From Bacteroidota bacterium (GTDB lineage Bacteria > Bacteroidota > Bacteroidia > Flavobacteriales > Flavobacteriaceae): a stretch of 64,000 bases of DNA. The stretch's first letter is position 1, and the number at the start of each line of letters is the position of its first letter. The stretch lies in the NCBI GenBank assembly GCA_020161455.1, contig JAIUNZ010000011.1:51620-115619 (forward strand), written 5' to 3'. This document shows positions 3,750 through 56,150 of this stretch, piece by piece. The translations under genes were made by a program, and so were the position numbers. Below the pieces are notes generated by a model that searched no databases, was not told where the DNA came from, and was given only the letters and a program-made list of their open reading frames with translations.

Positions 3750-3834
3750 TTGAAGTAATTTTAACAAAAATACTTGAAAACTTTCAAAGTCACAACGTTT
3801 CAAAGTTTTACCTTTGCCACGATAATCAAAACCT

Positions 3835-44847: not shown

Positions 44848-45330
44848 TTAATCTAGTTCGTGGAAAATAGTGTGCATTAAACGTTTTTTATCATTAATGC
44901 TTTCTTCCAATGAAATCATTGTTTCTGTTCTATAAACACCTTCAATGTCATCAATCATAAAGATTACATCTTTGGCATGTTTAGTGTCTTTAGCTCTAAT
45001 TTTACAGAAAATATTAAACTTACCAGTTGTTACGTGTGCTACTGTTACATAAGGAATGTCATTAATTCGCTCTAGAACAAATTTAGTTTGCGAAGTATTG
45101 TTTAAGAAAACACCAACGTAAGCAATAAACGAATAACCTAATTTTTCATAGTCTAATGACAAAGATGAACCCATAATTATCCCTTGTTCTTCCATCTTTT
45201 TAACACGAACGTGAACTGTTCCTGCTGATATCAATAATTTTTTAGCAACATCTGTAAAAGGAATTCGGGTATTCTCAATCAACATATCCAATATCTGAAG
45301 ATCAATTTCATCTAATCTAAATTTACTCAT
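44848..45330 (-). CDS. Lrp/AsnC-family regulator
   Basis: A 160-residue regulator. The N-terminal helix-turn-helix is LDEIDLQILDMLIENTRIPFTDVAKKLLISAGTVHVRVKKMEEQGII; the C-terminal RAM domain carries FIAYVGVFL and VTVAHVTTGKFNIFCKIRA. Lrp-type proteins form octamers and respond to amino acids. The sequence is of the highly conserved flavobacterial type. Start at 45330 (MSKFRLDEID) preferred over an eight-residue extension rich in lysine. Confidence 0.93.
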   Translation of the reverse strand: MSKFRLDEIDLQILDMLIENTRIPFTDVAKKLLISAGTVHVRVKKMEEQGIIMGSSLSLDYEKLGYSFIAYVGVFLNNTSQTKFVLERINDIPYVTVAHVTTGKFNIFCKIRAKDTKHAKDVIFMIDDIEGVYRTETMISLEESINDKKRLMHTIFHELD

Positions 45331-45400
45331 TTTTTCTTTTTTTTTTTTTATCATGTATTTTTTCGACCTGCAAAATAAAGTATTCTTAACATTAAAATTT

Positions 45401-54399: not shown

Positions 54400-56150
54400 A
54401 TGGAACAATTTGTAGTATCGGCGCGCAAGTATCGTCCGCAAACGTTTAAAGACGTAGTGGGACAACAAGCCATTACCAATACATTATTGAATGCTATTGA
54501 AAGTAATCACTTAGCGCAAGCACTACTTTTTACAGGTCCAAGAGGTGTTGGAAAAACTACCTGTGCCCGAATATTAGCTCGAAAAATAAACCAACCAGGC
54601 TATGACGATCCGCTAGAAGACTTTGCATTTAACGTATTTGAATTGGATGCCGCATCTAATAACTCAGTTGATGACATCCGAAACCTGATTGACCAAGTAC
54701 GCATACCACCACAAACCGGACAATATAAAGTATATATAATTGACGAGGTACACATGCTGTCGGCTTCGGCTTTCAATGCTTTTTTGAAAACATTAGAAGA
54801 GCCACCAAAACATGCCATCTTTATATTGGCAACCACCGAAAAACATAAAATCATTCCAACTATATTGTCTCGTTGTCAAATATTTGATTTTAAGAGAATC
54901 ACTGTAAAAGATGCGAGAGAACACTTAGCCGAAGTTGCTAAGAGTCAAAATGTAACTTATGAAGAAGATGCTTTGCACATCATTGCCCAAAAAGCCGATG
55001 GTGCTATGCGTGATGCATTATCTATTTTTGACCGTGTGGTTTCCTATTGTGGTAATAACTTAACCCGTCAAGCGGTTACGGAAAACTTGAACGTGTTGGA
55101 TTATGAAACCTATATAGAAATTACCAACTTACTACTAGAGAATAAAATTCCTGAAACCTTGATGATGTACAACGATGTGTTGGCTAAAGGTTTTGACGGA
55201 CATCACTTCGTTGCAGGATTGGCTTCTCACTTTAGAGATTTGATGGTTACCAAAAACCCAAGCACTTTGTCGTTGCTTGAAGTTGGAGAACAAGCCCAAG
55301 AACTATACCGACTACAATCGCAAAAGGCACCACAAGATTTTTTGTTAAAAGGCATCGAACTGGCTAATGATTGTGATTTAAAATTCAAGGTGTCGCAAAA
55401 CCAACGATTACTTGTCGAACTTTGTCTTATGCAACTTTGCTCTATCACACTTGATGGAGAAAAAAAAAAGCTAACTTCATAATTCCACCTATCTATTTTA
55501 AAAACCAAGGCTATTCTATAGCCGAAAAGGTTACCAAGGCTGAGGTTACAGTTGCGATTCCTGACGCTAAAGTTTCAACATCAAAAGTAAACGTTGTTAG
55601 TGCTGAAATTGAAGTTCCCGAAACCGTGCTAAAAGTTGAAGAAAGCGCTACTATAAAGACCGAAACTAAAGTAAGTGATGGTTTTACTTCTACCAAAGTT
55701 TCTGCTTTTTCGCTGAAAAGTATTTCAATAAAAAAAGAATTAGCAGAGAATCAAAAGAATATTTCTAAAGATACCAGCCACCTGCCTAGTGAAATTTTTA
55801 CGGAAACAGAAATGCAAGAACAATGGTTTAAATATGCACAACGACTAAGTGACAAAGGTCACATGATTATGATGTCATTATTAAGCATCAACGAACCTAC
55901 TCTAGAAGGTACAACTATTATTCACGAATTGCCAAACGAAGGCTCTAAAATTGATTTTGAACGCGAAATGCCCGAATTACTGGGTTACTTGAGAGGAAAA
56001 CTACACAACCACGACATCAAAATCACTGTTAGAATCAACGAAGCCATCGAAGCTAAAAAAGCATTTACGCCGCAAGACAAGTACAATAGAATGCTTGAAA
56101 TCAATCCTAATTTAGAGGTATTGAAAAAAATATTTGATTTAGAACTCTAA
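54400..56150 (+). CDS. dnaX: DNA polymerase III gamma/tau, read with a -1 shift at an A10 tract
   Basis: Clamp-loader ATPase. 0-frame from 54400: FVVSARKYRPQTFKDVVGQ, Walker A GPRGVGKT (46-53), VYIIDEVHMLSASAFNAFLKTLEEPP, SRCQIFDFKRI, domain III, then GEKKKLTS and TAA at 55480: 360 residues. The four-Cys zinc module is absent. Bases 55460-55469 are ten A then G (GAA AAA AAA AAG). A slip of -1 yields KKKANFIIPPIYFKNQGYS and continues to 56150 through the tau C-terminal domain (EQWFKYAQRLSDKGHMIMMSL), 583 residues in all. The open stretch from 55470 has no start before GTG 55626. It overlaps the 3' end of ppx by four bases. Gamma-like and tau products may both be made. Confidence 0.88.

Follow-up and report, generated by a model that had tools for sequence, protein, structure and literature searches.

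A hairpin and A10 tract in the dnaX gene of Flavobacteriaceae as a candidate site of programmed transcriptional slippage

The dnaX locus and its two reading frames

The window considered in this study (64,000 nucleotides of contig JAIUNZ010000011.1, assembly GCA_020161455.1) contains, on the forward strand, a dnaX gene whose reading frame is broken at a run of ten A's. The 0 frame (54400-55482, 360 codons) encodes the shared ATPase/clamp-loader part with a short tail, giving a gamma-like product; this template frame is ended by the TAA at 55480-55482, as read from the ORF. The A10 tract (55460-55469), for which a role in slippage is proposed from the sequence, is followed by a G at 55470 and directly preceded by a hairpin at 55440-55459, a putative slippage stimulator with arms at 55440-55447 and 55452-55459 (8 bp) around a 4-nt loop. 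According to the computed frames, the frame reached with one A fewer is closed by a TAA at 55472-55474, and the addition of one A (or the loss of two) gives access to the tau-specific tail (55470-56150), which is open for 226 codons over 55470-56147 and ends in a TAA at 56148-56150. Additionally, near its end the 0 frame reads through the heptamer A_AAA_AAG, and a second inverted repeat, GGCTAT-TCT-ATAGCC, lies at 55509-55523, 39 bases 3' of the A10 tract. The initial annotation had described the 360-codon frame, its stop, the A10-G and this downstream hairpin, and had likened the heptamer to the slip site of E. coli dnaX; all of the coordinates hold and the heptamer is present in the 0 frame.

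The short part matches the DnaX models PF13177 and PF22608 (Pfam) and TIGR02397, and the tail matches NCBIfam NF011531 (DNA polymerase III gamma/tau) at model positions 418-613 of 614 (E 4.1e-25); the tail was without a match in Pfam and returned a single chance hit (E 0.6) among solved structures. A conserved FIIPPxYF block starts a few residues past the tract, upstream of a GTG at 55626 from which a 174-codon ORF runs in the tail frame. When the last 130 codons of 52 genus tails were compared with the window's tail, the differences at codon positions 1, 2 and 3 numbered 1918, 1503 and 3782 over 6630 codon pairs, a pattern indicating that the shifted frame is really coding. The model match and these counts together bear out the earlier proposal that the shifted frame yields a conserved tau tail of 226 codons. 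Because of the split, the gene loses its most specific model name: the short frame alone scored 615 bits against NF011531, below the cut-off of 685, while passing the cut-offs of PRK05563 and TIGR02397. In most such Flavobacterium genomes, gene finders that rely on the frame would call the tail as an orphan next to a short DnaX.

Runs of this kind are uncommon in the source genome (3.08 Mb): it holds 93 overlapping A10 matches on both strands, and a small number of long runs accounts for many of them. Elsewhere in the window, 13 T's at 45337-45349 (A13 on the minus strand) fall within the opening codons of a minus-strand ORF (44848-45354, 168 codons). By eye, the encoded protein resembles an Lrp/AsnC-type regulator, and the ORF has a second in-frame ATG after the run.

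Conservation of the tract, the template frame and the closing stops

Within the genus Flavobacterium, DnaX was detected in 388 of 398 genomes. An exact signature for A10 in which the template frame encodes the short product was found in 295 of the 398, including single-contig assemblies (e.g., G010, G036, G042, G045), and the corresponding signature for tau as the template-frame product in 16; genomes outside both signatures differ in sequence or length, or lack an assembled copy. The frame break in dnaX is a fixed, conserved feature and not an assembly error. Being shared beyond one genome and followed by a constrained tail, it does not behave as a pseudogene or a misassembly, and the fixed indel or assembly error that had been offered initially as the alternative is contradicted by the same break in the 295 genomes.

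A wider survey comprised 346 dnaX loci: 80 named loci (the best 80 of at least 593 confirmed stretches), the window's own, 55 from the genus, 120 from the family, 2 from the order, 20 from the class and 68 from elsewhere in the phylum. The family search covered all 118 matched genomes and the phylum search 105 of 146. The genus rows consist of the 29 closest relatives, 6 loci from the phylum search and 20 hand-picked loci (11 chosen for being unbroken); since they are partly hand-picked, genus proportions are taken from the 398-genome signature counts. At least nine A's stand at the end of the shared part in the window's own locus (1/1), in 55/55 genus, 119/120 family, 2/2 order, 19/20 class and 41/68 other-phylum loci, and in 70/80 of the named loci (again the best 80 of at least 593). 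The initial annotation had suggested comparing the tract in related genes, and no near relative with an unbroken frame and no homopolymer was found among these 55 genus loci.

Among 343 distinct loci, the tract is A9 in 34, A10 in 244, A11 in 24, A12 in 1 and A13 in 1, a total of 304 with A9-A13; A7 was seen in 2 and A8 in 0, and 37 are without a run of seven or more. Such recurrence of the tract at one and the same position, in 304 of the 343 distinct relatives, is more than chance. Only 140 of the 304 tracts have a G next. Ten named loci lack the run, of which 8 are Bacteroidales (among the best 80 of at least 593). The named Bacteroidales loci in question and 27 of the 68 other-phylum loci have no run of seven or more A's at the site and mostly have a continuous frame, suggesting that these genes either lost the device or never had it. 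On the tree, run presence changes at least 16 times.

Among the 304 distinct loci with a run, the run starts at codon position 1, 2 and 3 in 25, 226 and 53 cases, respectively. Tau can be read from the template frame itself in 195, after the addition of one A in 100 and after the loss of one A in 9 (7 of these with tails over 140 codons), with the tau call being weak in 4 of the 304 whose tails are under 140 codons. In a separate case, the end of one locus (L043, ~3805-3826) carries what we take to be Nextera transposase adapter sequence; its contig runs into the adapter, so the short 441-codon frame of that locus is an artefact.

Both non-tau frames stop within 5 codons in 233 of 304 loci, as compared with 9% of control positions taken from these tails (557 of 6060), and within 10 codons in 288 of 304, as compared with 1780 of 6060 (29%), stops straddling the tract end being counted. 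Where relatives carry tau in the template frame, the median distance from a -1 shift to the next stop is 1 codon.

A phylogeny of the shared part made with FastTree (343 rows, 300 of them with a state) requires at least 38 changes of template class, or 19 after the removal of 20 isolated rows that were unlike their three nearest; some of the isolated switches could be homopolymer sequencing errors. In 100 label shuffles the mean was 87 changes and the minimum 75. The changes are fewer than in the shuffles yet many, suggesting that the template class is inherited but changes frequently, with the run and the closing stops retained.

The hairpin directly upstream of the A run

Structure was sought in one window upstream and three windows downstream of the run; the upstream window stood out in genus and family and was retested in two other ways. 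In the window's own dnaX, the hairpin at 55440-55459 abuts the first A with a gap of 0 nt (-7.8 kcal/mol, z -4.9, with 0 of 200 shuffles as good). The 60 nt 5' of the run have a mean z of -2.78 in 60 genus loci (54 with the window's own included, plus 6 named) and of -1.77 in 60 of the 118 family loci. As the first retest, perfect hairpins ending 0-3 nt before the run were ranked against other positions of the same gene, and they fell in the best 5% in 54/54 genus loci (the window included), 92/118 family loci, 28/70 named loci (from the best 80 of at least 593), 0/2 order, 5/19 class and 6/41 phylum loci. The second retest randomised synonymous codons according to the codon usage of each gene and placed the hairpin in the best 5% in 51/54 genus loci (mean -8.40 vs. 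-1.77 kcal/mol), 84/118 family loci, 22/70 named loci (from the same best 80 of at least 593) and 2/62 other loci. The synonymous-codon test indicates selection on the hairpin, in addition to that on the protein, in Flavobacterium and in much of its family; outside Flavobacteriaceae this test gave no support for the hairpin (2/62) and the positional enrichment is weak.

The mean hairpin energy profile is strongest (most negative) at the run edge; a second, minor peak lies ~42-44 nt 5' of the tract in both genus and family (genus mean about -1.6 kcal/mol). Both arms together with at least nine A's were found in 101 of 121 near-complete genus genomes, and the right arm with the A's in 102 of 121. 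One genus genome, G005, has GTC against GAC in place of the usual ATC against GAT pair. In the family, hairpins are strongest in front of A10: the mean energy is -6.5 for A10 (n=102), -2.0 for A9 (n=4) and -2.5 for A11 (n=12). Pairing in the fixed register holds for 96.4% of cells over 21 distinct genus 20-mers (28-78% in slid registers) and for 68.0% over 70 distinct family 20-mers (38-57% in slid registers). Covariation was set aside as hairpin evidence: double changes occur at 7 pairs in the fixed register and at 3-6 in slid registers, which is nearly as common, so the case rests on the synonymous-codon test.

The elements that stimulate ribosomal shifting in E. coli dnaX were also sought. 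Between -20 and -7 relative to the tract, 60/60 genus loci and 117/118 family loci have no Shine-Dalgarno-like element; a GGAG is present directly against the tract and is the right arm of the stem. Structure 3' of the tract is at background (mean z -0.22 over 60 genus loci, with controls at -0.24 and -0.40), and the window's own 60 nt downstream (z -2.4) are not shared in this respect by its relatives. The hairpin at 55509-55523 was considered as a stimulator and rejected (z -1.1, 29 of 200 shuffles as good). The earlier description of it as lying 39 bases away stands, but its relevance does not, as an exact copy occurs in 1 of 60 genus loci and the relevant hairpin adjoins the tract on its 5' side.

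Slippage by RNA polymerase and comparison with known systems

Combined, these results make it probable that dnaX carries a programmed transcriptional slippage site of the Thermus type, with the nascent hairpin probably acting as a stimulator. RNA polymerase would stutter on the A10 tract and give a pool of mRNAs with ten, more, or fewer A's. Transcripts with one more A (A11) or two fewer (A8) would bring the tail into frame and yield tau (~583 aa), and all other counts would lead to a stop within a few codons and yield gamma-like proteins (~357-360 aa). With the run filling the 9-10 bp RNA-DNA hybrid, the hairpin ending at the start of the A's would sit at the RNA exit channel, arranged as in an intrinsic terminator but with A's replacing the U's, and would probably promote slippage; ribosomal shifting at A_AAA_AAG may contribute. 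Four features point to RNA polymerase: the floor of nine A's, the free template frame, the stops that close both wrong frames and the position of the hairpin, one hybrid length from the end of the run. The floor in particular suits polymerase slippage, which uses runs of ~9 (PMC1088944), better than a 7-nt ribosomal site. From the tract, the frames, the closing stops, the coding tail and the selected hairpin, all of them conserved, we infer that slippage occurs, how strong it may be and that the hairpin acts on it. The preference of the initial annotation for transcript slippage over ribosomal shifting is supported by this comparison of sequences. As counter-points, the window's own 60 nt downstream do fold at z -2.4, and 26 of 118 family hairpins are not in the best 5% of own-gene positions; being partly missing in the family and unsupported outside Flavobacteriaceae, the hairpin cannot be generally required.

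A stronger reading is held with moderate confidence: in Flavobacteriaceae, the terminator-like hairpin-A10 would scramble the dnaX frame so strongly that the template frame is nearly neutral, and gamma-first and tau-first genes would interconvert repeatedly, with no loss of the hairpin, the A10 or the two closing stops. If scrambling were complete, tau and gamma would be expected at about 1:2 from any template, and repeated switching fits this expectation. The short product is indeed in the template frame of the window's gene, as first described, but calling it the default would mean little if slippage is strong.

An E. coli-type -1 ribosomal frameshift at A_AAA_AAG, which would make tau from uniform A10 mRNA (and gamma in tau-template relatives), is unlikely. 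The window's gene does have the heptamer in the 0 frame, as do the 295 genus genomes (of 398) with the short-product signature, and the prompt stop that tau-template relatives meet in the -1 frame resembles that of E. coli. Against such a shift, the tract is held at nine or more although six or seven A's would be enough, a G follows in fewer than half of the tracts, and neither the upstream element nor a conserved downstream stem was found in the loci searched. Additionally, the 9 loci in which tau needs one A fewer would need the opposite shift, the selected hairpin would presumably be covered by the decoding ribosome, and F. johnsoniae is reported to make little use of Shine-Dalgarno sequences and to be inefficient at the prfB frameshift (excerpts of PMC12421855). 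Codon phase was dropped as a discriminator between ribosome and polymerase, and counts as a counter-point to the argument for slippage, because A10 contains a slippery heptamer in any phase.

Still less probable is a sum of the two mechanisms, in which the ratio is set mostly by slippage of the polymerase, with additional shifting by ribosomes on the same run. A10-G suits both, and a review states, in the part consulted, that both may occur at one site (PMC5009743), but the known E. coli dnaX stimulators were not found in the 60 genus loci. It is highly improbable that the tail is a separate protein made from an internal start or by reinitiation, with dnaX making gamma alone: the GTG-started ORF at 55626 would serve for this, but the FIIPPxYF block begins upstream of that GTG, and a continuous protein is encoded in 16 genus genomes and in 195 of 304 loci. 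Least credible of all is an assembly error, a pseudogene, or replication slippage varying between cells (phase variation), for which an error-prone homopolymer and one indel would suffice, but which the shared break (single-contig genomes included), the constrained tail and the retained hairpin and closing stops already contradict.

Programmed slippage by RNA polymerase, the preferred reading, can be set beside known systems as far as the consulted excerpts of the cited papers describe them. The two-ORF A10 organisation of dnaX has been known since 2013: Antonov et al. listed 17 such genes with poly-A runs from 12 genera, nine with ten A's, in which recoding is needed for tau, and proposed transcriptional realignment (PMC3711429). 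The window's dnaX shares with them the gene, the -1 transition at the DNA level, the poly-A run at the junction and tau by recoding; the hairpin before the run and the switching of the template frame found here go unmentioned in the consulted passages of that paper. In Thermus thermophilus dnaX (Larsen 2000), gamma and tau arise from one gene through an A run (PMC1088944, PMC5009743), with near stops in both non-zero frames (PMC5009743). A run of at least nine A's between the shared and tau parts and near stops in both non-tau frames are common to both, whereas Thermus has A9 with tau in the template frame and the window's dnaX has A10 with gamma in it. The heptamer and the pair of gamma and tau products are shared with E. 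coli dnaX, where tau is the 0 frame and an SD-like element upstream and a stem-loop downstream act as stimulators (PMC3711429, PMC5009743), neither of which was found here.

The hairpin has its closest counterparts in insertion sequences. A nascent stem loop beside the 9-10 bp hybrid is a described slippage stimulator, and stem-loop-stimulated slippage was reported for Roseiflexus IS630 (Penno 2015, via PMC5009743). In IS1447, slippage on an A9 that follows a stem-loop amounts to ~16% in each direction (+1 and -1), and removal of a codon next to the run brought no visible change in slippage, a result that counts against the role proposed here (PMC6211511). The stem-loop directly before the slippage run is shared with both elements; those are mobile elements, whereas here the setting is a core replication gene with A10, with a hairpin kept through a bacterial family and a predicted role for it. 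In the part of the literature searched, no dnaX hairpin before an A run and no template-frame switching in Bacteroidota were found, which is not proof of novelty. Relative to the known kind, the adjoining hairpin and the switching template frame thus appear to be new. The ~300 natural variants differ in tract length (A9-A13), in phase (three), in template relation (three) and in the presence of the hairpin; they offer a series for measuring how tract, hairpin and frame control the gamma:tau ratio, and could show whether a template frame can be nearly neutral. If the interpretation is true, stem-loop-stimulated slippage, tied to insertion sequences in the literature consulted, would be placed in a core replication gene across a whole family.
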